Origin: an uncultured Actinomycetes bacterium
GTDB lineage: Bacteria > Actinomycetota > Acidimicrobiia > Acidimicrobiales > Microtrichaceae
Assembly: GCA_903873135.1 (NCBI GenBank)
Contig: CAIQNH010000027.1
Span: 1-32,219, forward strand
DNA length: 32,219 bases
Direction: 5' to 3'
Positions 1,314-29,080 of this stretch are shown piece by piece. The notes below the pieces were generated by a model that was not told where the DNA came from, did not search any database, and was given only the letters and a program-made list of their open reading frames with translations. A program made the position numbers and the translations under genes. Each line of letters starts with the position of its first letter. Within the stretch, counting starts at the first letter, position 1.

Positions 1314-3521
1314 TCAGGTGAGGTCGTAGCCGAGGCGGTCGGCGAGCTCCCGCAACAGGTCGGCCGCAGCGGTGTGGATCACCGTCCCCGGAGGGAAGAT
1401 CGCCGCAGCGCCGGCGGCCCGCAGCTCGTCGTAGTCCTGCGGCGGGATCACCCCGCCGACCACGACCACGATGTCCGGACGACCCAGATCGGCGAGCGCG
1501 TCGCGCAGCGCCGGCACCAGGGTGAGGTGCCCGGCCGCCAGCGACGACGCCCCGACCACGTGGACGTCGGCCTCGACCGCCTGCCGGGCCGCCTCCTCGG
1601 GCGTCTGGAACAGCGGGCCGATGTCGACGTCCCAGCCCAGGTCGGCGAACGCGGAGGCGATCACCTTCTGACCCCGGTCGTGGCCGTCCTGACCCATCTT
1701 GGCCAGCAGGATGCGCGGCCGTCGGCCGTCGGCCCGCTCGAACGACTCGACCAGCGAACGCACCTCGTCCACGGCACCTCCCCGCTCGCCGAGCTCGCTG
1801 CGGTACACGCCCGAGATGGACCGGATGTCGGCCCGGTGCCGACCGTAGACCACCTCGAGCGCGTCGCTGATCTCCCCGACCGACGCCTGGGCCCGGGCGG
1901 CGTCGACCGCCAGCTCGAGCAGGTTGCCCTCGCCCGAGTCGGCGCACCGGGTCAGCGCGTCGAGCGCGGAGCGCACCCGGTCGTCGTCGCGCTCGGCCCG
2001 CAGCCGCTCGAGCTTGGCGATCTGTCCGGCGCGCACCGCCGAGTTGTCGACCTTGAGGACCTCGACGTCCTCGTGCTCGGTGAGCCGGTACTTGTTGACC
2101 CCGATGACGGGCTGACGGCCGGAGTCGATCCGGGCCTGGGTCCGGGCGGCCGCCTCCTCGATGCGCAGCTTGGGGAGGCCGGCCGAGATCGCCGCCGCCA
2201 TGCCGCCGAGCTCGTCGACCTCACGGATGTGGGCGAGCGCCCGGTCGGCCAGCTCGGCGGTGAGCCGCTCGACGTAGTAGCTCCCACCCCACGGGTCGAT
2301 CACGCGGGTCGTGCCGGACTCCTGCTGCAGGAACAGCTGGGTGTTGCGGGCGATGCGGGCCGAGAAGTCGGTCGGCAGGGCGAGCGCCTCGTCGAGGGAG
2401 TTGGTGTGGAGACTCTGGGTGTGGCCCTGCGTGGCCGCCATCGCCTCGACGCACGTGCGCACGACGTTGTTGAACACGTCCTGCGCGGTGAGCGACCAGC
2501 CCGACGTCTGGGAGTGCGTGCGCAGCGACAACGACTTGGGGTTGGACGGACCGAACCGCTCCTCGACGAGCGACGCCCACAGCAGGCGGCCGGCGCGGAG
2601 CTTGGCGACCTCCATGAAGAAGTTCATGCCGATCGCCCAGAAGAAGCTGAGCCGCGGCGCGAACGCGTCGACGTCGAGCCCGGCGTCCAGCCCCGCCTGC
2701 ACGTACTCGAGGCCGTCGGCCAGCGTGTACGCGAGCTCCAGGTCGGCCGTCGCCCCCGCCTCCTGCATGTGGTAGCCGGAGATCGAGATGGAGTTGAACC
2801 TCGGCATCCGCTGGGAGGTGTAGGCGAAGATGTCGGAGATGATCCGCATGGAGGGGGCCGGCGGGTAGATGTAGGTGTTGCGGACCATGAACTCCTTGAG
2901 GATGTCGTTCTGGATGGTCCCCGCCAGCTGCTCGGGCGGCACCCCCTGCTCCTCACCGGCGACGATGTAGAGCGCCATGATCGGCAGCACCGCGCCGTTC
3001 ATGGTCATGGACACGCTCATCTGGTCGAGCGGGATCCCGTCGAACAGCACGCGCATGTCGTAGATGGAGTCGATCGCCACACCGGCCATGCCCACGTCGC
3101 CGACGACCCGGGGGTTGTCGGAGTCGTAGCCCCGGTGGGTCGGCAGGTCGAACGCCACCGACAGACCCTTCTGGCCCGCGGCCAGGTTGCGCCGGTAGAA
3201 GGCGTTGGAGTCCTCGGCGGTGGAGAACCCGGCGTACTGCCGGATGGTCCACGGCTGGTTGACGTACATGGTCGGGTACGGGCCCCGGAGGAACGGCGGC
3301 AGCCCCGGGAAGGTGTCGAGGAAGTCCAGATCGGCGACGTCGGCCGCGGAGTACAGCGGTGCCACGTCGATCCCCTCCGGGGTCGACCACACGAGCTTCC
3401 CGGGCTCGACGCCGGTGGCGGCCTCCACCGCCTCCTCCCAGGCGTCGCGGGCGTCCGCCGGTGGCGGCACCACCCCGGGGAGCGGGACCTGGGTGAAGTC
3501 GGGGACCTCGAAGCTGCTCAC
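1314..3521 (-). CDS. mutB: Methylmalonyl-CoA mutase large (catalytic) subunit
   Basis: The 735-residue product has the full length of the cobalamin-dependent mutase alpha chain, which interconverts (R)-methylmalonyl-CoA and succinyl-CoA in propionate metabolism. The N-terminal TIM-barrel half shows [12 protein letters not shown] (about 90-101) with the tyrosine (Y96) typical of methylmalonyl-CoA-specific enzymes, then [34 protein letters not shown] (with the substrate arginine) and GYHMQEAGA with its histidine. The C-terminal B12 domain has D612-x-H614-x-x-G617 (DGHDRG), the lower-axial-ligand motif. The GTG start overlaps the mutA stop as GTGA, so the two are translationally coupled. A glutamine (Q89) stands before PWT where many homologues have arginine. 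MeaB and the epimerase are not in the window. Confidence 0.96.
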
Positions 3522-5413
3522 CGGACACCTCCCGTCACGCCGCAGACCTCGAGGGCCCGACGCAGGACGTCGAGCACGTCGACGCCGATGTGGACGAACT
3601 CGTCGACCCCGGCGGCCGTGAGCCGCTCGCGGTCGTCACCCGGCGCACCCGCCAGGTAGACCCGCCCGACGCCGCTCCCGGCGAGCGCCGCGGCTGCGTC
3701 AGCTCCACGCTCGGCGTAGACCGCGTCGGACGAGCACAGGCACACGATCGCCGCGCCGGACGCCGCCGCGTCGGCGGCCAGCTCGGCCGGGTCGTCGTAG
3801 CCCGTGGTGTCGCCCCGTTCGGTCGTGACCGCCCGGATCCCCCCGGCGGCGAACAGGTTGCGGGTGAACGTGGCCCGAGCGGTGTGCACGGCGACCGGTC
3901 CGAGGTTGGCCAGGAACACGGTGGGTTCCCGGCCGTCCGCCCGGGCGGCGTCGGCGAGGTCCCGGAGCTCCTCGTACCCCTCGGCCCAGCGGACGGGGAC
4001 GAGGAGCGGGGTGTGCGGGTCGACCGGGGCGACCTCGGGCGCGGGTTCCTCCAGATCAGGGAACTCGCTCACGCCGGTGATCGGTCGACGCCTCGTGGCC
4101 ACCTGGGCCTCCACCCGCGACCGTTCGTCGGCGACGCGAGCGGCCAGCGTGCCGTCGACCAACGCCCGGCCGACACCGCCGGCCTCCTCGAGCTGCTGGA
4201 AGGTCGACCACGCCGCCTGTGCGATCCGCTCGGTGAGCTCCTCGAGGAACGCCGAGCCGCCCGCGGGGTCGAGCACCCGGCCGAGCGACGACTCCTCGAG
4301 CAGCAGGAGCTGCGTGTTGCGCGCCATGCGGCGGCCCAGGTCCGACGAACCGGCGAGCAGCGCGTCGTAGCTGTCGGTCGTGATGCTGTCGGCACCACCC
4401 ACGCCGGCGGCGAACGTCGCGGCGGTGACCCGCAGCAGGTTCACCCACGGGTCGCGCGTCGTGAGCATGCGGCGGGCCGTGCGCACCGACAGCGGCGATC
4501 CCGGCACCCCCGAGCCGCCGCACGCCGAGGTGAGCGCCGACCAGAGACGCCGGGCGGCGCGGACCTTGGCGATCGTCACGAACACGTCGGTGTCGGCCGC
4601 GAGCTCGAGCTCGATCTGCGAGACGGCGTCGTCGACGTCGAGTCCGGCGGCGCCGAGCTCGCGCAGGTACGCGGCACCGGTCGAGAGCACCACGGCGAGC
4701 TCGAGGACCTCGGACGCGCCCGACTCGACGACCGGGAGCGACGACACCGTCATCGTCCGGACACCCGGGCGGGTCGCAGCGGTCCGGACGGCCAGCTCGG
4801 CGGCCCGGGTGAGGGCCTCACCGACCGGGAGGTCGGCCTGCCCCTCGGCGGCCAGGGCGGCGAACGGGTCGGCGCCGAACCCACCGACGGTGTCGGCGCC
4901 GCCCAGACCCTGCTGGTCCCAGAGCCCCTCGAGCGCCGACGCGGCCGACTCGAAGGACCAACCCGCCCGGAGCACGACCGGCGCCAGGTCGAGGAGCACG
5001 CCGTCGAGTCGCGCCGGGAGGTCGGACGGTGTCGCGGGCGGGAACGGGATCTCGAGTGCCGTCACCCCGCGTTCGAGGTCCTCGAGCGCCTGACGGTTGG
5101 CGACGGTCGCGTCGAGAGCGTCGACCGGTCGACGCACCTCCCACAACCCGAACGGTCGGGGTGCCGGGTGGACACCCCTCGTGGTCGGAGCCGCCCCGGG
5201 GAAGCCCGATCCGTCGTGGCCGGTGGCCCCCTCGCCCGGCACGTGGAGCGGCTCGACCTCGACGCCACCCGGCGTGGTGGATCGCAGCGTGCTCGACGCT
5301 CGGCCCTTCAGGGCACCGGCGACGGCGGCCTCCCACTCCTCGCGGGTCGCCGCCGGGAACGCGCCCGCCAGGGACCGGGACGACCCGACCGGACTGTCGT
5401 CGGCTGTTGCCAC
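3518..5413 (-). CDS. mutA: Methylmalonyl-CoA mutase small (non-catalytic) subunit
   Basis: The 631-residue product is the usual length of the MutA beta chain that pairs with MutB. It keeps the mutase barrel fold signature (for example [47 protein letters not shown], described here as adjoining blocks) and the C-terminal Rossmann-like B12-domain fold. It lacks the DxHxxG cobalt-ligand motif, reading [13 protein letters not shown] there, as expected for the structural subunit. I chose the GTG at 5413 because GAGGAGG lies 5 nt upstream and homology begins just after it. The frame stays open to 5611, but that extension is Arg/Pro-rich and overlaps the preceding gene. It is followed by mutB with a 4-base overlap. 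Confidence 0.93.
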
Positions 5414-5489
5414 GTGGACCTCCTCGACCACCGCACCCGGTGGCACGTCCGCCGGGACCCGCCGCTCCGACGGGCTCCGAACGGCGGCG

Positions 5490-5495
5490 AGGCTA
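5490..5495 (-). promoter_or_regulatory. Candidate -10 box (TAGCCT) for mutAB
   Basis: TAGCCT on the minus strand fits TANNNT and would give a leader of about 70 nt ending in the GAGGAGG ribosome site of mutA. Its first three bases are the TAG stop of the upstream ferric-reductase-like gene. Read-through from the upstream operon is the alternative. Confidence 0.3.
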
Positions 5496-6212
5496 CCGGA
5501 GGTCCACGCCCGACTCCGAAGCCACCGGTCCCCGGTACGGCGGCGGCGTGAGCACCGGTGCGGAGGGGCCGCCCAGCGGCGCCGGCCGGTCCGGAACGGG
5601 CGGGGCGGCACCGGCGACCGAACCGGTCGCTGGGCGACCTCGACCCGCCACCGCCGATCGGGCGCCGGCGGGCACCCGGGCGGGACGGGACCCCCTGGTC
5701 AGGATGCGGTAGATGGTGAGGAAGCACACCACCGACGCCAGGCCGAGCGTCACCCAGCGGAACCACGGGTTGTCGGCATCGGTGCCGGCCGTCATGGCGT
5801 GGAGACCGACGAGCACGGCGAGCGGGTACGAGAGCAGGTGGAGCAGGTGCCACCGACGCCGTGACAACCGGCGCTGGAACCACGACGACACCTGCACCAC
5901 GGCGAGCAACCAGACGGCGAACACACCCCAGGCGACGGGCGCGGGCTTCCAGTCAGAGGCGAACGGCACGACGAGTTCGACGAGGGTGAACTCCTCGAAG
6001 CTGTCGGCCCAGACCGCGAGGAGGTGGACGACGACGAACGTGACCGAGAGTCCCGCGAGCCCCCGGTGCAGGTCGGTGAGCCACGCGGGCACCCCCTTCC
6101 GGGGGATCATCCGGGTGCTCACCAACAACCCCCACACCACGGTGAGGGCGATCAGGACGGCGGCGACCATGCCGCTGGACCGGGCGACGAACCACCAGAA
6201 CTGCTCGCTCAC
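5493..6212 (-). CDS. Ferric-reductase-like transmembrane (heme b) protein
   Basis: This 239-residue protein has about five hydrophobic segments (roughly 12-32, 52-70, 92-110, 124-141 and 152-170) and a Pro/Gly/Ala-rich cytoplasmic-type tail from about 172. Two histidine pairs sit at heme-b spacing: H49-x13-H63 (DLHRG...VVHLL) and H125-x12-H138 (HLLHLLSY...GLHAM). This is the pattern of the ferric-reductase-like transmembrane domain found in FRE/NOX-type and MsrQ-type cytochromes. There is no attached FAD/NAD domain, so an electron donor must be separate. The GTG start at 6212 overlaps the apbE stop (GTGA), with GGGAGG upstream. The frame continues to 6443 inside apbE, but that part is a shadow. 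Membrane electron transfer is inferred; the exact acceptor is unknown. Confidence 0.8.
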   Translation of the reverse strand: MSEQFWWFVARSSGMVAAVLIALTVVWGLLVSTRMIPRKGVPAWLTDLHRGLAGLSVTFVVVHLLAVWADSFEEFTLVELVVPFASDWKPAPVAWGVFAVWLLAVVQVSSWFQRRLSRRRWHLLHLLSYPLAVLVGLHAMTAGTDADNPWFRWVTLGLASVVCFLTIYRILTRGSRPARVPAGARSAVAGRGRPATGSVAGAAPPVPDRPAPLGGPSAPVLTPPPYRGPVASESGVDLR

Positions 6213-20306: not shown

Positions 20307-20375
20307 CAGGGCGTCGGTCCTCGCGCGTCGGACGCACGGGGGCGGTCGCACGCCGTCGACGAGGGGGCCGAGCGA

Positions 20376-20984
20376 GTGGCACGCGTGCCGAGGGGACAAC
20401 AGACCCGGGACGAGATCCTGGCCGCCGCACTCCGGGAGTTCGCTGCCCGCGGCTACCAGGCGGTCACCGTGGAGGAGATCGCGGCCGCTGCGGGCGTCAC
20501 GAAGGGGGCCGTCTACCACTGGTTCACCGACAAGGACGATCTGGGCCGGGAGCTGCAGCACCAGCTGTACGACCGCATGCGCGCCACGACGGCGGCCACG
20601 TACCACCCCGACGGCGACCTGCTGTCGGACATGACGCGCGCCTTCCAGGTCTGGCTCACGACCGTGGGCGACCTGGGCGAGGCCCGGTTCTTCCTCCGTG
20701 ACGCCTGGGTGATCCCGGCGCTCGACGAGGGGGGACGGGCGGACCACGAAGCCGCCGTCGAACTCGTCCGAGACGTCCTGTCACGCGCTGTCGACCGGGG
20801 CGAGCTCGTCGAGGTCGACCCCGAGGCCACGGCCCGGATCCTGATGGGCGCCTGGGCCGAGGCGACGCTCTACGTGCTGCGCACGGGCCGCCGCGCCGAG
20901 GCCGTGGCCGTCATCGAACGACTCGTCGGCGCGCTGCGGCCGACCGACACTCCCGTCCGGACCACCCAGGAGGCACCAGCGTGA
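20376..20984 (+). CDS. TetR/AcrR-family transcriptional regulator
   Basis: This is a 202-residue repressor-type protein. The N-terminal helix-turn-helix spans about 8-58 (QQTRDEILAAALREFAARGYQAVTVEEIAAAAGVTKGAVYHWFTDKDDLGRE, described by segment), and the C-terminal ligand and dimer domain follows, rich in Ala and Leu. The ligand is not known; its operon suggests an amine, amide or derived aldehyde. The start is uncertain. GTG at 20376 has GAGGGGG about 10 nt upstream and sits next to the DNA-binding domain, while the in-frame ATG at 20295 overlaps the likely promoter. It overlaps the aminotransferase gene by 4 bp (GTGA). Confidence 0.85.
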   Translation: MARVPRGQQTRDEILAAALREFAARGYQAVTVEEIAAAAGVTKGAVYHWFTDKDDLGRELQHQLYDRMRATTAATYHPDGDLLSDMTRAFQVWLTTVGDLGEARFFLRDAWVIPALDEGGRADHEAAVELVRDVLSRAVDRGELVEVDPEATARILMGAWAEATLYVLRTGRRAEAVAVIERLVGALRPTDTPVRTTQEAPA

Positions 20985-22744
20985 ACCCACCAACGACCGG
21001 AACACCCGTCCAGCTGCAGGGTCTGGCCGCCCGCGATGCGGCCCACCTGATCCACCCGGTGACCGAGCCGCGTGAGATGGCCGAGCGCGGCCCGCGCATC
21101 GTCACCGCCGGCGACGGCTGGTGGGTCACCGACGACCGGGGGCGGCGGATCATCGACGGCTTCGCCGGCCTCTGGTGCGTCGCCGTCGGACACGGCCGCC
21201 CGGAGATCATCGAGGCCGTCACCCGCCAGCTCGAGGAGCTCGACTACTTCACGACCTTCCACGGACAGTCCCACCCTCGCGCCATCGAGCTCGCCGAACG
21301 GCTCGCCGGCATGTTCGATCCCGCCTACGGGCTGGAGCACGTGATGTTCTCCTCGGGAGGCTCCGAGGCCAACGAGACGAACTTCAAGCTCGTCCGGCTC
21401 TACTGGGCGCTGCGCGGCGAGGACCGCCGGACCATCGTCGCCCGCCACCACGGCTACCACGGGCTGACGATCGCCACGATGTCGGCGACGGGCATCCTGC
21501 CGATGCACTGGAACTTCGGACCCAACGCCGAGGGCTTCCAGCACGTCGCCGCCCCCTACTGCTACAAGTGCGAGCTCGGTCTCACCTACCCCGACTGCGG
21601 ACTGGCGTGCGCGAACTCCCTGGAGCAGCTCGTCGAACAGGTCGGGGCCGAGTCGATCGGTGCGTTCATCGCCGAGCCGGTGATCGGGGCCGGTGGCATC
21701 ATCCCGCCGCCCGACGACTACTTCCCGAGGATCCGCGAGATCTGCGACCGTCACGGGATCCTGCTGATCGTCGACGAGGTCGTCACCGGGTTCGGGCGGA
21801 CCGGGAGGATGTTCGGCCACGAGCACTGGGGCGGGATCCGGCCGGACCTGGTGACGCTCGCCAAGGGGCTCACCAGCGGCTACCAGCCGCTGGGGGGCTC
21901 GGTGGTGGCGGACCACGTGTGGGACACGATCTCGGACGGGCTGCCCAACCAGATGCCCTTCAGCCACGGCTTCACCTACAGCGGCCACCCGGCCGCGTGC
22001 GCAGCGGGGCTCGCCAACCTGGACATCATCGAGCGGGACGGACTGGTCGACAACGCCGCGCAGGTCGGGGCCTACCTGCACGAGCAGCTCCACGAACGAC
22101 TCGGCGGGTTCGACACCGTCGGCGAGATCCGCGGCATGGGCCTGATGGCCGGCATCGAGTTCGTCGCCGACCGCGACACCAAGCGGGGGTTCACCCACCC
22201 CCACACCGCCTGCACGACCGTGGAACTCGAGGCGTGGGAGCGCGGGCTCTACTGCCGGGCCATGGGCATCGAGACGGTCGGGCTGGCGCCGCCGCTCAGC
22301 ATCGACCGCGAGTGCGTGGACCAGATGGTCTCGATCCTGGTGGAGTCGGTCGAGGAGATGGAGCGTCAGCTGCTGCCCGGCGAGCGCACCCGGGCGGAGC
22401 GATTCAGCCACCGGTACGGCTCGGCCCAGGAGATCTTCGACCGGATGACCGACCGCTTCGACGCCGAACGGGCCGGCGACGCCGACCTGGTCGTCGCGTT
22501 CGCCCTGACCGGCGACGAGGGCGGCACCTGGACGGTGACCATCCGTGACGGCGCCATGGACCTGAGCGGTCCAGCCGACGCTCCGGCCACGTCACCGACC
22601 GTCACCATCAACGCCAGCGCCGAGGACTACGTCCGGATGGCCAACGGCGAGCTCGACGGCGCCGAGGCGTTCTCGACCCAACGCCTGTCGATCGACGGTG
22701 ACCTGACCGCAGCCGTGCTGCTCTCGCAGCTCGGCCTCATGTGA
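20981..22744 (+). CDS. Class III aminotransferase fused to a C-terminal SCP2-like domain
   Basis: The 587-residue protein has a class III (omega) aminotransferase domain to about residue 465. It shows SSGGSEANE (PLP phosphate), HHGYHG (156-161), IAEPVIGAGG (230-239), the PLP aspartate D265 in IVDEVVTGFGRTG, and catalytic lysine K295 in LAKGLTSGYQPLG. A C194-x2-C197-x8-C206-x3-C210 group lies in a loop. Residues about 485-587 (FDRMTDRFDAER...NGELDGAEAFSTQRLSIDGDL) match an SCP2 sterol-carrier fold, which usually binds lipids. The fusion is unusual for this enzyme class. GTG at 20981 is preceded by AGGAGG. The reaction should be transfer of an amino group between an omega-amine and a keto acid. 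The substrate is unknown. Confidence 0.88.
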   Translation: MNPPTTGTPVQLQGLAARDAAHLIHPVTEPREMAERGPRIVTAGDGWWVTDDRGRRIIDGFAGLWCVAVGHGRPEIIEAVTRQLEELDYFTTFHGQSHPRAIELAERLAGMFDPAYGLEHVMFSSGGSEANETNFKLVRLYWALRGEDRRTIVARHHGYHGLTIATMSATGILPMHWNFGPNAEGFQHVAAPYCYKCELGLTYPDCGLACANSLEQLVEQVGAESIGAFIAEPVIGAGGIIPPPDDYFPRIREICDRHGILLIVDEVVTGFGRTGRMFGHEHWGGIRPDLVTLAKGLTSGYQPLGGSVVADHVWDTISDGLPNQMPFSHGFTYSGHPAACAAGLANLDIIERDGLVDNAAQVGAYLHEQLHERLGGFDTVGEIRGMGLMAGIEFVADRDTKRGFTHPHTACTTVELEAWERGLYCRAMGIETVGLAPPLSIDRECVDQMVSILVESVEEMERQLLPGERTRAERFSHRYGSAQEIFDRMTDRFDAERAGDADLVVAFALTGDEGGTWTVTIRDGAMDLSGPADAPATSPTVTINASAEDYVRMANGELDGAEAFSTQRLSIDGDLTAAVLLSQLGLM

Positions 22745-22772: not shown

Positions 22773-23999
22773 GTGCGTGCGCTCGTGTTCATGACCGACC
22801 CGGGCGAGGTCCCGGCACCTCCACCGGACGCGCCACGGCTCGTCCAGCACCTGGCGACGACGCCGATGGCGATCGAGGACCTCCCGGATCCGACGGTGCT
22901 CGGCGACGACTGGGCGGTCCTGCGGACCCGCATGTGCGGCATCTGCGGGTCGGACTCCAAGCAGGTGCTCATGGACTTCGACGACGCCGGCGACAACCCC
23001 ATGACCGCGTTCATCTCGTTCCCGCAGGTGCTGGGCCACGAGGTCGTCGCCGACGTGGTCGACGCAGGTCCGGCGTTCGACCTCCCCGTCGGCCAGCGGG
23101 TCGTGCTCAACCCGTGGCTCTCGTGCGCGCCCAGGGGCATCGAGCCGCCGTGCCCGGAGTGTGCGGTCGGCAACTACAGCGCCTGCTGGGGGTTCCTCGA
23201 CGGACGACTCGCCCCGGGCATCCACACCGGGAACTCCTCGGACGCCACGGGTGGGTTCGCCGACCTGCTCCCCGCCCACCGGCTCATGTCGTTCCCCGTT
23301 CCCGACGACGTCCCCGACGAGGTGGCCGTCCTGGCGGACCCCTTCTCCGTGTCGCTGCACGCCATCACCCGCAACCCGCCGCCTCCGGGCGGACGTGCGG
23401 TCGTGTACGGCGCCGGCGCGCTCGGCACGACCGCCACGGCCATCCTCCGGGCGCTGCACCCCGACGTGGAGGTGGCGACGATCGCACGCTGGCCCGCGCA
23501 GGCGGCCCTCGCCCGACGGCTCGGCGCCACCGTGTTCCAGCCCGAGCCGCGCGAGGCGCTGATCGAGGAGGTCGCCGAGTGGTGCGGGGCGACCCTGCGG
23601 TCGCCGTGGGAGGGACTCCCCGTCGCGTACCCGAGCCACGTCGACTGCGTCTACGACACGGTCGGCTACCCCGAGACCGTCGAGGTCGGCCTCCGGATCC
23701 TGGGACACGGTGGACAGCTCGTGCAGCTCGGGGTGGCGTCGCCCGCTCGGTTCGAGTGGACGCCGTGGTACTTCAAGGAACTCCGGCTGATCGGCTCCAA
23801 CGCCTTCGGGGTCGAGGAGGTCGACGGCGTGCGACAGCACGCGATCGAGCACTACCTCGACCTGGTGCGCGACGGACGGATCGACCTGAGCGGCATGCTC
23901 ACCCACACCTTCCGCCTCGAGGACTGGCGCGACGCGTTCCGCACGATCATCGACCAGGGCGACCGGGACGCCGTCAAGGTCGCGTTCGACTTCCGGTGA
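22773..23999 (+). CDS. Zinc-dependent alcohol dehydrogenase-type oxidoreductase
   Basis: This 408-residue MDR-superfamily protein has catalytic-zinc ligand C55 in MCGICGSDSKQ, H89-E90 in LGHEVV, structural-zinc cysteines C118, C127, C130 and C138 (spacing x8, x2, x7), and a Rossmann VYGAGALGTTA. It should oxidise or reduce an alcohol/aldehyde with NAD(P). The tail LEDWRDAFRTIIDQGDRDAVKVAFDF is the usual MDR end. GTG at 22773 has GGGAGGGAGG upstream, 28 bp after the aminotransferase. It overlaps the amidohydrolase as GTGA. In the operon it may handle the aldehyde made by the aminotransferase (inference). Confidence 0.9.
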   Translation: MRALVFMTDPGEVPAPPPDAPRLVQHLATTPMAIEDLPDPTVLGDDWAVLRTRMCGICGSDSKQVLMDFDDAGDNPMTAFISFPQVLGHEVVADVVDAGPAFDLPVGQRVVLNPWLSCAPRGIEPPCPECAVGNYSACWGFLDGRLAPGIHTGNSSDATGGFADLLPAHRLMSFPVPDDVPDEVAVLADPFSVSLHAITRNPPPPGGRAVVYGAGALGTTATAILRALHPDVEVATIARWPAQAALARRLGATVFQPEPREALIEEVAEWCGATLRSPWEGLPVAYPSHVDCVYDTVGYPETVEVGLRILGHGGQLVQLGVASPARFEWTPWYFKELRLIGSNAFGVEEVDGVRQHAIEHYLDLVRDGRIDLSGMLTHTFRLEDWRDAFRTIIDQGDRDAVKVAFDFR

Positions 24000-25591
24000 A
24001 CGAGCTCTCCAGCTCGCCGGGGACCAGCGCTGCTCGGCGCACGGTGTTCCGGGGCGGGCCGATCCTCACGATGGGACCACGCGGCACCGTCGAGTCGATC
24101 GTCGTCAGGGGCGACCGTGTGGAGGCAGTGGGCGAACGGTCGCTCGGTGACGCTGCGGTCGCGGACGGGGCCGCCGTCGTGGAGTTGGCCGGCCGCACGC
24201 TGGTACCGGGGTTCGTCGACGCCCACTGCCACCTGTCGGTCACAGCGCTCGAGGCCGAGTGGCTCGACTGCCGTGACCTGACCGACGAGTCCACCCTGGC
24301 CGCAGGAATGCGGGCGCTGGCGGACGCCCGACCACACGTCGAGTGGATCCGCGGGTGTCGCTGGGACGAGTCCACCGGACTGCGACCCACGCTGAGGGTG
24401 CTCGACGAGGCCACCGGTGACCGTCCGGCGATCGTGGTGCACCACACCTTCCACCAGGCGGTGGTGAACTCGTCGGCGCTCGACCGGCTCGGGATCGGGC
24501 GCAGGTCCGCTGCGGTGGACGAGGACGTGGAACGCGGCCCGGACGGCCTGGCGACGGGGCTCCTGACCGAACGCGCCTTCGGCCGGGCGCACGCCGAGTC
24601 GGTGCGGGCGTTCACTGACCCCGACCGCTACGACGAGTTGCTCGTCGCCCGGGCCCGGGCGCTCCACGAGCACGGGATCACCGCCGTCCACGACGCTGCC
24701 GTCGACGCCACCGCGGAGGCCCGCTACCGGGCACTCGCGAGCAGCGGGGCACTGCCCGTGTCGGTCCTGGTGATGCCGGCCGCCACGCCGTTCCTGTCCA
24801 ACGACCTGGGCGAGCGACTCGACGGCCCGGTCACCGGCGAGGGCGACGAGTGGCTGCGCGTCGGGCCCGTGAAGTGCTTCGCCGACGGTGGCGTGGCGCC
24901 GGCGATCGACGTCCACCACCACGGACACCACGTCGCGTTCGGCCAGCGCTTCGACGACCTCGCCGACGCCGTGCTCACAGCGACCGATCGGGGCTTCCGG
25001 GTGGCGGTGCACGCCATGGGCAACGCCGGGGTGGCCGCGGCACTGGACGCCTTCACCGCGGCCGCCAGGAGACGTCCGGGCAGCGACCACCGTTTCCGGC
25101 TGGAGCACGCCGGGCTCGCCTCCGCAGCACAGGCACGCCGGGCAGCCGGGCTCGGTGCCGTCGGAGTGGTCCAGCCAGGGTTCGTGGAGCACGTCGGGCG
25201 GAGCACCGCCGGGTTCGCCCCGGACGACGCCACCTGGCTGCCGTTCGCCACGCTGATCGAGGCGGGCGTGCCGGTCGCCGGCTCCTCGGACGACCCGTGC
25301 GGTCCGATCGACCCCCTCCACTGCGCACTGCTGGGCGAGCGTCGCCACACCTCCGGCGGGATCCCGGTGACACCCTCGGAGTCGGTCCCCGTGGCCGACT
25401 GGCTCCGGGCCTACACCGCCGGCGCGGCACTGGCCGGTGGCCAGGAGGGCGAACGTGGCTCGCTGCAGGCCGGTCTCCGGGCCGACCTGGCGGTGCTGGC
25501 GCCCACCACGACCGGTCCGTCCTCGTTCCGGGTCGACGCCACGTGGATCGGGGGCCGCGAGGTGTTCGGGCGCACGTCCGGGACGGACTGA
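23996..25591 (+). CDS. Amidohydrolase family protein (YtcJ-like)
   Basis: This 531-residue metal-dependent hydrolase of the amidohydrolase superfamily has a beta-sandwich N-terminus with VELAGRTLVPGFVDAHCHL (H77 and H79 of the HxH metal motif), PVKCFADGGVAP with the bridging lysine position, HHHGHH, FRVAVHAMGNAG, HRFRLEHAGLA and PVAGSSDDPCGPIDP. This matches the YtcJ-like amidohydrolase-3 group, whose members cleave amide or cyclic C-N bonds in N-acyl or carbamoyl compounds. The GTG start overlaps the dehydrogenase stop (GTGA), completing a four-gene unit with the TetR regulator. The substrate is unknown. Confidence 0.88.
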   Translation: MNELSSSPGTSAARRTVFRGGPILTMGPRGTVESIVVRGDRVEAVGERSLGDAAVADGAAVVELAGRTLVPGFVDAHCHLSVTALEAEWLDCRDLTDESTLAAGMRALADARPHVEWIRGCRWDESTGLRPTLRVLDEATGDRPAIVVHHTFHQAVVNSSALDRLGIGRRSAAVDEDVERGPDGLATGLLTERAFGRAHAESVRAFTDPDRYDELLVARARALHEHGITAVHDAAVDATAEARYRALASSGALPVSVLVMPAATPFLSNDLGERLDGPVTGEGDEWLRVGPVKCFADGGVAPAIDVHHHGHHVAFGQRFDDLADAVLTATDRGFRVAVHAMGNAGVAAALDAFTAAARRRPGSDHRFRLEHAGLASAAQARRAAGLGAVGVVQPGFVEHVGRSTAGFAPDDATWLPFATLIEAGVPVAGSSDDPCGPIDPLHCALLGERRHTSGGIPVTPSESVPVADWLRAYTAGAALAGGQEGERGSLQAGLRADLAVLAPTTTGPSSFRVDATWIGGREVFGRTSGTD

Positions 25592-25692: not shown

Positions 25693-26940
25693 GTGGCACA
25701 CGCCGGTCGACGGGCGATCGCCCGCAGCACAGCGGTCCTGGCCGTCACGTCGATGCTCGCCGCCCTCCTGGCCGCGTGCGCCGCACCATCGGGCGGCACG
25801 ACCGTCACCCAGGGCTACTACGGCGGCGAGATCTCGGTCCTGAACTCGCCCGTGACCTACGGCTACGACGGTGTGGCCGGACAGGACCTCAACCTCTTCT
25901 ACGGACTCTCCTTCGCCGAGACGCAGCGACGACTGGAGCTCGTCGCTCCCGGCGGCGGCGTGGTGGCACCGATCGAGCAGCGCGACGGCGCCACCGATCG
26001 GTTCATCCTGCCGACGACGGGCCGCTACTCGATCCGCCTCCTGTACCCGAACGCCGACACCAAGGTGCAGCGGTTCTCGCTGGTGGTCAGTCGTGACGAG
26101 GACCGGGGGCCCACCGACCTCGGACCGCTCGGGTCGGTGTTCATCGGCCAGGAGGTGACCTACCACTACGCCGGGACCGCCGGCGAGCAGCTCAACCGCT
26201 ACCAGGTCGCCCGGGTCGTGGCTCCCGACGGGACCCGCCTCGGCGACAACGGGCTGCGATCGGCGCAGGTGACGCTGCCGGTCACCGGGGACTACCGGAT
26301 CGTGGCCACCAACAGCGTCGCCGTCCTGAGCAACGACCTCCCGCCGATCGCAGCGTCGCTCGGCCGAGTGGACCTGCCACCCCTGCAGCGGGGCCAGCAC
26401 GTCGACGTGCTGTACGCCGGCACCGTCGGTGAGGCGCTCGGGGTCGGCACGACCGCCTACGACCTCGAGCTGGCCGTCGGCCGGGCGGACTGGACGCCAC
26501 TGTCGCCCACGCCGTCGAGTCGGGGGAGCCGGTTCGTGCTCCCGGCGACCGCCACCTACCGGGTGGTCGCCACCGGCCAGACGTTCGGGACGCCGGCCGC
26601 CTCGGCGCTGTGGTTCAGCCACGACCTGGAGCTGGGCGCAGTCGGCGAGGGGTCGTTCGCCACGCCGTCCCGGGTGCCCGGCCAGTCCGTCGTCCTGCGC
26701 CACGCGAGGCCCTCCGGCGGGGCGTTCCGCGTCCGCACCTTCGACCCCCCGGGCCTCAAGCCCCGGATCTTCGTGACCGGGCCGACCGGTCTGACCCTGA
26801 CGGGTGTCACGGAGTCGGGTCCGAGCGACCCGTGGACCACCTACTCCCCCGCCGAATCCGGTGAGCACACCGTCCTGGTCGTCCCCACCGAGAGCCCCGG
26901 GGACGGACCGATCACCGTCGAACTCGACGACCTCCCCTGA
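25693..26940 (+). CDS. PPC-like lipoprotein, first of a tandem paralogous pair
   Basis: The 415-residue product has a signal peptide and lipobox LAAC (C29) followed by CAAPSGGTTVTQG. The rest is built of repeated beta-sandwich-like blocks: SVLNSPVTYGYDGVAGQ, IRLLYPNADTKVQ, YHYAGTAGEQLNR, LPVTGDYRIVA, and a final block with FRVRTFDPPGLKP and ESGEHTVLVVP. The pattern (turn G-T-A-G-E-x-L-N and P-x-T-G-x-Y-x-I) resembles the PPC domain of secreted bacterial proteins, which supports folding or export rather than catalysis. No enzymatic motif is seen. GTG at 25693 has AGAGGAGG 5 nt upstream. It shares high DNA and protein identity with the next gene. Confidence 0.72.
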   Translation: MAHAGRRAIARSTAVLAVTSMLAALLAACAAPSGGTTVTQGYYGGEISVLNSPVTYGYDGVAGQDLNLFYGLSFAETQRRLELVAPGGGVVAPIEQRDGATDRFILPTTGRYSIRLLYPNADTKVQRFSLVVSRDEDRGPTDLGPLGSVFIGQEVTYHYAGTAGEQLNRYQVARVVAPDGTRLGDNGLRSAQVTLPVTGDYRIVATNSVAVLSNDLPPIAASLGRVDLPPLQRGQHVDVLYAGTVGEALGVGTTAYDLELAVGRADWTPLSPTPSSRGSRFVLPATATYRVVATGQTFGTPAASALWFSHDLELGAVGEGSFATPSRVPGQSVVLRHARPSGGAFRVRTFDPPGLKPRIFVTGPTGLTLTGVTESGPSDPWTTYSPAESGEHTVLVVPTESPGDGPITVELDDLP

Positions 26941-26965: not shown

Positions 26966-28225
26966 GTGCAGACCCGACTGACCGCAGCCGCCATCGTCGT
27001 CCTCGCGACCGCCGCCGCCGTCCTGACCGGCTGCGCCGCACCCTCCGGCGGAACCACCGTCACGCAGGGCTCGTACTCGGGCGAGTACTCCGTCCTGAAC
27101 TCGCCCGTCACCTACGGCTACGACGGCGTCGCCGGCCAGACCGTCAACCTGCTGCTCTACGACAACCGACCGTTCTTCAACCCGAACCTGGACCCGCCGA
27201 CGCTCGACCTGATCGCACCGGGCGGTGCGGTCGTCCCGGTGGCGTCCACACGCGGCACGACCCGGATCTACGAACTCCCCGTGACCGGCCGCTACTCGGT
27301 CGCGCTCCGGTACCCGTCGGCCGACCTGGGTGTCCTGACCTACACCCTGGCGGTGAGCCAGGACCAGGACCGCGGTGCGACGGGGCTCGGACCGATCGCG
27401 CCCATCGGCTCGCTCATCCCCGGTCAGGCGGTCACCTACACCTACGCCGGAACCGCCGGTGAGCACCTGAACCGGTTCCTGGTCGACGACGTCGTCGCAC
27501 CCGACGGCACCAGCGTCCCTCCGAACGGTCGGCGGACCAGTCAGGTGACGCTCCCCGTCACCGGGAACTACCGGATCGAGGTGACCCAGACCGGGGCCAC
27601 CCTGAGCAACGACCTCCCGGCCGTGCCCGTGGACCTGGGACCCACCAGCGTGCCGACCCTGCTCCCCGGCCAGCACGTGTCGCTGCTGTACACGGCGACC
27701 GCCGGCGAGACCATCGGGCTCAGCTCGACGTTCAACGTCGGCGTGCAGCTCCGCAACGCCGACGAGACCGTGTTCGACCCGACCGAGATCCTCCCCCGGA
27801 CTCGCTACACCTTCACCGACGCCGGCACGTACCAGGTGGTGGTCAGGGGCTCCAACAACAGCAGCGGCGCGTTCGTCTGGCTCAGCGAGACCCTCGACCT
27901 CGGTGTGCTCGAGGAGGGGTCCTACCCGACGCCGGGTCGGCTCCCCGGGCAGGCCGCCGCCGCTGGCGTGGTCGCCGACGCCGGCGGACGGTTCCGGATC
28001 CGCACGTTCGACCCGCCCGGCGTCAAGCCCGGCGTGACGGTCCGCTCGCCGAACGGTTCGATCCTGGAGGGGGTGGTGGACGAGGGGCCTCCCTTCGATC
28101 CGGACCCGTGGGTGACCTTCACCGCCACCGAGTCGGGCGTGCACTCCGTCCTGGTGGTGCCGAGGAGCGTCGGCGTCGTCCCGGGCTCGGACCTGATCAC
28201 GCTCGAGATCGACGCGCTCCCCTGA
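26966..28225 (+). CDS. PPC-like lipoprotein, second of a tandem paralogous pair
   Basis: The 419-residue product has lipobox LTGC (C23) and the same mature start CAAPSGGTTVTQG, then SVLNSPVTYGYDGVAGQ, YTYAGTAGEHLNRF, LPVTGNYRIEV, NDLPAVPVDLGP, RIRTFDPPGVKP and ESGVHSVLVVP. Its blocks match those of the upstream gene one for one. It lies 25 bp after that gene, with GAGAGGAG before GTG 26966, so the two are cotranscribed. It is a duplicated surface lipoprotein of unknown function. The region between the blocks has diverged more than the first about 45 mature residues. Confidence 0.72.
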   Translation: MQTRLTAAAIVVLATAAAVLTGCAAPSGGTTVTQGSYSGEYSVLNSPVTYGYDGVAGQTVNLLLYDNRPFFNPNLDPPTLDLIAPGGAVVPVASTRGTTRIYELPVTGRYSVALRYPSADLGVLTYTLAVSQDQDRGATGLGPIAPIGSLIPGQAVTYTYAGTAGEHLNRFLVDDVVAPDGTSVPPNGRRTSQVTLPVTGNYRIEVTQTGATLSNDLPAVPVDLGPTSVPTLLPGQHVSLLYTATAGETIGLSSTFNVGVQLRNADETVFDPTEILPRTRYTFTDAGTYQVVVRGSNNSSGAFVWLSETLDLGVLEEGSYPTPGRLPGQAAAAGVVADAGGRFRIRTFDPPGVKPGVTVRSPNGSILEGVVDEGPPFDPDPWVTFTATESGVHSVLVVPRSVGVVPGSDLITLEIDALP

Positions 28226-28226
28226 G

Positions 28227-28253
28227 CGGGGGCGGCGCCGTCACCCGCCCCCG
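28227..28253. terminator. GC hairpin between convergent lipoprotein and PhyH-type genes
   Basis: CGGGGGCG (28227-28234) pairs with CGCCCCCG (28246-28253) around an 11-nt loop, and covers the stop codon of the minus-strand dioxygenase gene (28243-28241). There is no U-run. Confidence 0.6.
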
Positions 28254-29080
28254 AAACCGGTTCCTCCGCGATCGGAACGGAGGACCGAGATCGGGTCGCG
28301 CAGGTCGCCGACGTAGCCGAGCGCGTAGCTCCCCAGCGAGTAGCCCATGAGTCGCTGGACCCGCTCGGGCAGGTTCCGCGCCACCTCGAGCGGCACCGAC
28401 AGGTACTGGTTCTCCTCCTGACGCAGCCAGCCGAGGGTGTAGTCCACGTTCAGACCCACACGGGTCTCGTCGCTCCGGTTGGCGCCACCGCCGTGGACGG
28501 TCGAGCCGGTGTAGATCACGACCGACCCGCGCGGCATCTCAGCGGACACCGCGTCGTCATCGGTGGCCGTGACCTCGGCGAGGCGGTGGCTCCCGGGTAC
28601 CACCCGGGTGGCCCCGGTGGCCTCGGTGAAGTCGGTGAGCGCCCAGATGGTCGAGACCTCCACGACCAGTTCGGGCGGGAACGGGTGGAAGTCGAAGCAC
28701 CACTGGTCCCGGTGGAGTCCCTGGGCCGGCGAGTCGGGTCCGATCGCGATGGCCTGGGTGAGGTGCAGCTGGAACGTCGACTTGTCCGGACCGAGGACCC
28801 GGTCGACCACGTCGAGGACGAGGTCGTGGGCGACCAGGCCGACCGACGACGGCGACCGGCCGAGGATGGCCCCGACGCGCCGGGTGTTGCGGCCCTCGAA
28901 GTCGTCGGCGCCGGGCCGGACGGCGTCGAGGTGCGGCCGGAGTTCGGCCAGCACGGCGTCGCAGGTGGCCTCGTCGACGAGCCGCTCGACCACGCACACG
29001 CCGTGGTCGCTCACCGCTGCCGAGACGTCCTCGACCGTCGCGGTGGTCCCGTCGACCCGCGGGAGTTCGGGGCGGGTCAC
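28241..29080 (-). CDS. Phytanoyl-CoA dioxygenase (PhyH)-like Fe(II)/2-oxoglutarate oxygenase
   Basis: The 279-residue protein has the PhyH double-stranded beta-helix features: H123-x-D125 in GLHRDQW, the distal H196 in TGSTVHGGGANRS, and R207 in DETRVGL, a 2-oxoglutarate-binding position. The middle AIAIGPDSPAQG and VEVSTIWALTDFTEATGATRVVPGSH are family-typical. It should hydroxylate a carbon of an unknown acyl or small-molecule substrate. GTG at 29080 overlaps the preceding oxidoreductase stop (GTGA), so both form one operon. Confidence 0.88.
   Translation of the reverse strand: MTRPELPRVDGTTATVEDVSAAVSDHGVCVVERLVDEATCDAVLAELRPHLDAVRPGADDFEGRNTRRVGAILGRSPSSVGLVAHDLVLDVVDRVLGPDKSTFQLHLTQAIAIGPDSPAQGLHRDQWCFDFHPFPPELVVEVSTIWALTDFTEATGATRVVPGSHRLAEVTATDDDAVSAEMPRGSVVIYTGSTVHGGGANRSDETRVGLNVDYTLGWLRQEENQYLSVPLEVARNLPERVQRLMGYSLGSYALGYVGDLRDPISVLRSDRGGTGFGGG

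Follow-up and report, generated by a model that had tools for sequence, protein, structure and literature searches.

What does an SCP2 domain, best known from lipid carriers, do at the end of an aminotransferase? The question is raised by a gene (positions 20,981 to 22,744, forward strand) in the window, the 32,219-nucleotide stretch of DNA from an uncultured member of the Acidimicrobiia analyzed here. Its 587-residue product, here called AT-SCP2 and delimited by the open reading frame list, Pfam and fused relatives, carries a class III aminotransferase and an SCP2 domain on one chain. The domains are ordinary, and their combination is unusual yet conserved. The original prediction described a complete omega-aminotransferase with an SCP2-like tail, a hydrophobic or acyl-linked substrate, and a four-cysteine loop as a possible metal site. 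No description of an aminotransferase-SCP2 fusion was found in the open-licence PMC literature, and one may still exist elsewhere.

Domain architecture of AT-SCP2

The AT-SCP2 reading frame is single and begins with a GTG codon that overlaps by 4 bases the stop of an upstream TetR regulator gene (20,373 to 20,984, forward strand, start provisional; Pfam and locus comparison). Pfam places Aminotran_3 at residues 39-455 (E 1.1e-94; 317.9 bits versus a curated cut-off of 30.5), whereas the best NCBIfam match, the PRK07480 subfamily, falls below its cut-off (484.6 versus 510). This catalytic domain (21,095 to 22,345, forward strand) is also defined by its predicted fold and by conservation: Lys295, Asp265, Gly127-Ser128, Thr332, and Arg426 are invariant in all 17 aligned rows. 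Lys295 and Asp265 lie exactly where the original prediction put them, and both the Pfam match and the fold agree with its call of a complete omega-aminotransferase. In the alignment, Arg426 stands opposite an arginine of 6io1 and 5kr6, immediately before an APPL stretch, and presumably corresponds to the flipping arginine known from amine transaminases.

The full-length model (mean pLDDT 80.8) predicts a fold type I aminotransferase for the catalytic part. Its residues 11-468 superpose on class III transaminases with Z scores of 43-46, reaching 46.0 for 5kr3 over 444 residues at 2.7 Å. AT-SCP2 shares this fold with the 5kr3-5kr6 series, 6io1 (Thermomicrobium roseum), and 6g4b (Pseudomonas jessenii) at Z of about 45-46 and 36-42% identity in the fold alignments, and has in common with class III amine transaminases the catalytic Lys/Asp, the PLP-binding residues, and the likely flipping arginine. 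However, the matches of the solved class III transaminases listed end by about residue 473 of AT-SCP2, and no SCP2 tail is aligned.

In the full-length model, a long helix (residues 443-474) connects the enzyme to the linker; the continuation of this helix and the variable linker occupy residues 466-495 (22,376 to 22,465, forward strand). The SCP2 domain follows at residues 496-587 (22,466 to 22,741, forward strand), an assignment based on Pfam, PDB profile searches, fold, and dN/dS. Pfam recognizes SCP2 at residues 501-583 (E 3.3e-12; 47.1 bits versus a gathering score of 21.3), and Alkyl_sulf_C also matches the tail (30 bits versus a cut-off of 27). A profile built from 14 tails retrieved the SCP2 structures 1qnd (E 3.8e-9) and 1c44 (E 2.8e-8) from the PDB. 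Predicted alone (mean pLDDT 83.8), the tail was superposed by VIA-align on the SCP2 domain of human MFE-2 (1ikt; Z 14.0, 105 residues, 2.4 Å), on 1c44 (Z 13.1, 2.4 Å), and on its best structural match, the C-terminal part of the sec-alkylsulfatase Pisa1 (4av7; Z 14.8, 118 residues, 4.8 Å), and Foldseek results were consistent.

The tail is thus a genuine SCP2 domain with a predicted SCP2 fold. It resembles the SCP2 domains of MFE-2 (1ikt) and SCP-2 (1c44, 1qnd) in fold and sequence profile, whereas identity to them is only about 21% and fusion to a transaminase is particular to AT-SCP2. The SCP2-like tail of about 100 residues in the original prediction was right in kind, with one slip of emphasis: SCP2 proper begins near residues 496-501, after the helix and linker. 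Both members of the domain pair score above their curated cut-offs, and structure prediction folds the tail as SCP2, so that the failure against SCP2 profiles named beforehand as a refuting outcome did not occur.

Distribution and history of the fusion

Fused relatives of AT-SCP2 are concentrated in its own class. In a set of 395 class genomes, 15 contained a match at E ≤ 1e-130, giving 16 matches in total, of which 13 extend to residue 586 or 587 and span the tail. Four of the 16 belong to the window's own genus, including two in a single genome (G192). The remaining three comprise one with a frame-disturbed tail (G368) and two without any tail (loci L068 and L070, from genomes G294 and G293), whose enzymes stop cleanly at about 460-473 residues. 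Another genome (G072) shows part of a tail where its contig ends. The full fusion is present in 7 of 26 genome_contigs loci, several of them the same contigs as in the class genomes. In total, 14 complete fused relatives were aligned (63-96% identity), and relatives are accordingly not all tail-less, the second outcome that had been named as refuting. In the phylum at large, only one of 396 sampled genomes, the window's own, matched at E ≤ 1e-140.

Two of these genomes show local irregularities. In G368 (L069, 8471-10219), the middle of the tail lies in another frame, the 582-residue frame stays open, and the end again reads as tail, pointing to compensating indels or assembly errors. The G192 bin holds two copies of the cluster on separate contigs (L006/L057 and L004/L058), whose enzymes match that of the window at 100% and 93% identity, which may reflect duplication or a mixed bin.

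Beyond the class, a fused copy (L007) lies on a 5.3-kb contig of a 7.8-Mb genome labelled Candidatus Binatia. Among 148 genomes of that genome's class, five had a match and the four besides its own lack the tail; the fused copy may thus stem from contamination or lateral transfer. None of seven matches in six genomes carries a tail among 198 genomes from the phylum of G938, the source of tail-less locus L010. A separate SCP2 gene was not detected by the tail profile near the tail-less enzymes of L068, L070, L010, and L012, nor within the short flanks of L078-L080 and L083-L089. Weak tail matches occur in the window's own genome (L002, where the opposite strand has no Pfam match) and in six further genomes (G010, G013, G049, G078, G091, and G114; open frames of 148-317 residues). 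Two candidate fusions were rejected. On plasmids, the tail profile matched a single record, an SCP2-domain protein of Methylosinus. In L016, an apparent fusion of transaminase and alanine dehydrogenase contains three stops in translation and is read as a same-frame neighboring gene; L025 likewise showed a frame continuing past the transaminase, and in both the downstream frame is presumably alanine dehydrogenase, judging by its sequence.

The SCP2 tail is under purifying selection. In six pairs within the window's genus, dN/dS is 0.114-0.202 for the SCP2 part versus 0.053-0.097 for the transaminase, and the L066/L067 pair gives 0.184 for the tail versus 0.041 for the transaminase. Compared with the window, ten more distant fused rows are 70-80% identical in the transaminase and 45-56% in the tail. 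Together, these values indicate that selection preserves the tail, under looser constraint than the enzyme.

A tree inferred from 31 transaminase parts unites every tailed row in a single clade (support 100/99). L068 and L070, which have no tail, and the cut locus L011 belong to this clade as well. L068 and L070 are nested there with L061, L063, and L064 (support 96/98, and 98/97 in a 27-row tree), and the outgroups all lack a tail. Several inner forks of the tree are open, and long branches are flagged among the outgroups. The simplest reading of this topology is a single gain of the tail in an Acidimicrobiia-centred clade, followed by one loss in a sublineage.

The four-cysteine loop and the gene neighborhood

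The four cysteines of the original prediction are at exactly the residues it listed, forming the motif C194-x2-C197-x8-C206-x3-C210 (21,560 to 21,610, forward strand), which was followed through alignments of relatives. All 17 aligned rows carry the motif unchanged, the tail-less L068, L070, and L010 among them. It is complete in each of eight additional relatives without a tail and in none of three plasmid relatives. Of the 26 genome_contigs loci, 13 have it, three of these from Pleurocapsa-type cyanobacteria, while the other 13, mostly SAR324, keep the last cysteine alone. Because tail-less relatives have it too, the loop is not part of the fusion; from its distribution it marks a broad transaminase subfamily that predates the tail, and the possible metal site would be a matter of that wider subfamily. 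No solved structure with this loop is found among the PDB alignments shown, and it is absent from the solved transaminases in the five alignments shown for the cysteine region of L010.

In the window, AT-SCP2 is followed on the same strand by a Zn-dependent medium-chain alcohol dehydrogenase (Zn-ADH; 22,773 to 23,999) and an Amidohydro_3 metal-dependent hydrolase (24,071 to 25,591, start provisional), both assigned by Pfam and locus comparison. A PhyH-family dioxygenase (28,241 to 29,080, reverse strand) is tentatively linked to AT-SCP2 through homologues directly downstream of the fused gene in L066 and L067. Two adjacent genes directly after the operon (25,753-26,940 and 26,966-28,225) have no confident Pfam match. 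Their products are apparently paralogues, judging from the near-identical locus L006, where the two are about 49% identical. Elsewhere in the window, 1,314-5,611 (reverse strand) holds two adjacent methylmalonyl-CoA-mutase-family genes, one with a B12-binding domain and the other without a match.

Neighbors were counted in 14 fused-clade loci, namely the window, L059-L070, and L007, with the window's genus counted once; L063/L064 and L066/L067 are pairs, each from one genus, and the neighbors of L064 and L070 are those found by tblastn with chosen queries. A TetR homologue lies beside the aminotransferase gene in 8 of the 14. An orthologous short-chain dehydrogenase (SDR1; 56-76% identical in the comparisons made) is also present in eight (L061, L062, L063, L064, L065, L066, L068, and L070), five of which have the order SDR-TetR-AT on a single strand. 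An SDR or Zn-ADH is nearby in 11 loci, and neither was detected in L059 (a 6-kb contig), L060, and L069. Since the nearest SDR1 relative in the window's genome is only 48% identical and on another contig, the Zn-ADH may replace SDR1 in the window's operon. Amidohydro_3 occurs in five loci (the window, L059, L062, L067, where it is a more distant one, and L068) and PhyH in three (the window, L066, and L067). Tail-less L068 keeps SDR, TetR, Zn-ADH, and Amidohydro_3, and tail-less L070 keeps SDR. Binding-protein genes are found near the fused gene in L061 (UgpB-like) and L062 (OpuAC).

Similar functions surround more distant relatives. The tail-less four-cysteine outgroups L010 (7995-11523) and L091 (6-3519) have a row of aminotransferase, DHDPS-family aldolase, and Zn-ADH, the last 50% identical to the window's, which suggests a polar ancestral substrate. 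A relative on Paracoccus aminophilus pAMI4 (L074; 46% identical) lies in the row DHDPS, SDR, SDR, aminotransferase, and succinate-semialdehyde dehydrogenase. With the queries used, no AT/DHDPS/Zn-ADH row was seen in the outgroup stretches L090 and L092-L096. These neighborhoods point to amine, alcohol, and aldehyde catabolism as an old theme of the locus, to which the tail was added later. The closest PDB relatives of the window's PhyH protein are DhiD and fungal dioxygenases such as PrhA. Solved PhyH relatives such as AusE, PrhA, and AndA act mostly on apolar natural products, and PhyH is the only neighbor for which this is so, a hint of apolar chemistry at the locus.

Possible roles of the SCP2 tail

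The reading we favor, to which we give an even chance, is that of a class III transaminase of the amine:pyruvate type that works in a catabolic operon and whose SCP2 domain is accessory, serving a hydrophobic substrate or product. AT-SCP2 would be a PLP-dependent amine:alpha-keto-acid transaminase with PLP on Lys295, Asp265 at the ring nitrogen, and Arg426 at the presumed flipping-arginine position. Pyruvate would be the probable acceptor, given that a flipping arginine lets amine transaminases use it (PMC4907197). TetR would control the operon, and the carbonyl product would be passed to, or taken from, an alcohol dehydrogenase, which would be the orthologous SDR in many relatives and the Zn-ADH in the window's genus. 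The SCP2 pocket would keep the apolar portion of a hydrophobic amine, or of the aldehyde or ketone product, close to the active site.

The role of the tail is drawn from analogy with the alkylsulfatases SdsA1, SdsAP, and Pisa1, which share the design of a catalytic domain followed by a C-terminal SCP2-like domain. The catalytic folds differ, being a PLP fold in AT-SCP2 and a metallo-beta-lactamase fold in the alkylsulfatases (PMC5426288); at E ≤ 0.01, only Aminotran_3, SCP2, and Alkyl_sulf_C match AT-SCP2 in Pfam, with no metallo-beta-lactamase domain. By this analogy, the tail may help the enzyme with greasy substrates, and the hydrophobic or acyl-linked substrate of the original prediction is plausible. 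The reaction itself seems not to need the tail, because L068 and L070 lack it within a retained operon; these loci and the tail-less outgroups beside polar-metabolism genes suggest that it tunes the enzyme. Counting against the favored reading are the UgpB-like and OpuAC neighbors, which imply polar cargo, the three loci without SDR or ADH, and the faster evolution of the tail. The tail-less KES23458 (4UHM/4UHN/4UHO) also counts against it, since it already accepts diamines and omega-amino acids up to 12-aminododecanoate (PMC4907197).

A serious rival, and a real possibility, gives the SCP2-fold tail a structural role, in forming dimers or tetramers or in keeping the protein stable or soluble. 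The tail would then bind no lipid, and the enzyme would act on a small polar amine or amino acid. The loss of the tail in L068/L070 with the operon kept, the polar-metabolism genes of the outgroups, and the faster drift of the tail than of the enzyme all fit this explanation, as does the alkylsulfatase SdsAP, whose dimer interface is built from all three domains (PMC5426288). A pure assembly role leaves the recruitment of an SCP2 fold unexplained, however, and the PhyH neighbors hint otherwise.

SCP2 domains bind fatty acyl-CoA, and the tail might instead bind acyl-CoA or another acyl-linked carrier, with the aminotransferase acting on an amino-acyl-CoA. The PhyH neighbors would suit such a substrate. 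Acyl-CoA ligase, acyl-CoA dehydrogenase, and thiolase were, however, not found among the close neighbors scanned, and no phytanoyl-CoA hydroxylase is named in the 42 PDB rows for the window's PhyH, making the idea improbable. An artefactual fusion, through a frame-fused neighbor or assembly error, has only the rarity of the domain pair in its favor and is refuted to a negligible likelihood by the fused relatives, their similar linker lengths, and purifying selection on the tail.

If the favored accessory role holds, its most far-reaching form would be a transaminase with a built-in lipid carrier, taking greasy amines in the SCP2 pocket, on a four-cysteine subfamily that is possibly metal-binding or redox-sensing; we regard this combination as rather doubtful. 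The cysteines of that broad subfamily are apparently without a structural explanation. Bulky amines of low solubility are a persistent obstacle in transaminase engineering, and the natural tail-less sisters L068 and L070 offer a built-in comparison. Should the tail deliver hydrophobic amines, AT-SCP2 would serve such work as a precedent from nature and as a module ready for use.
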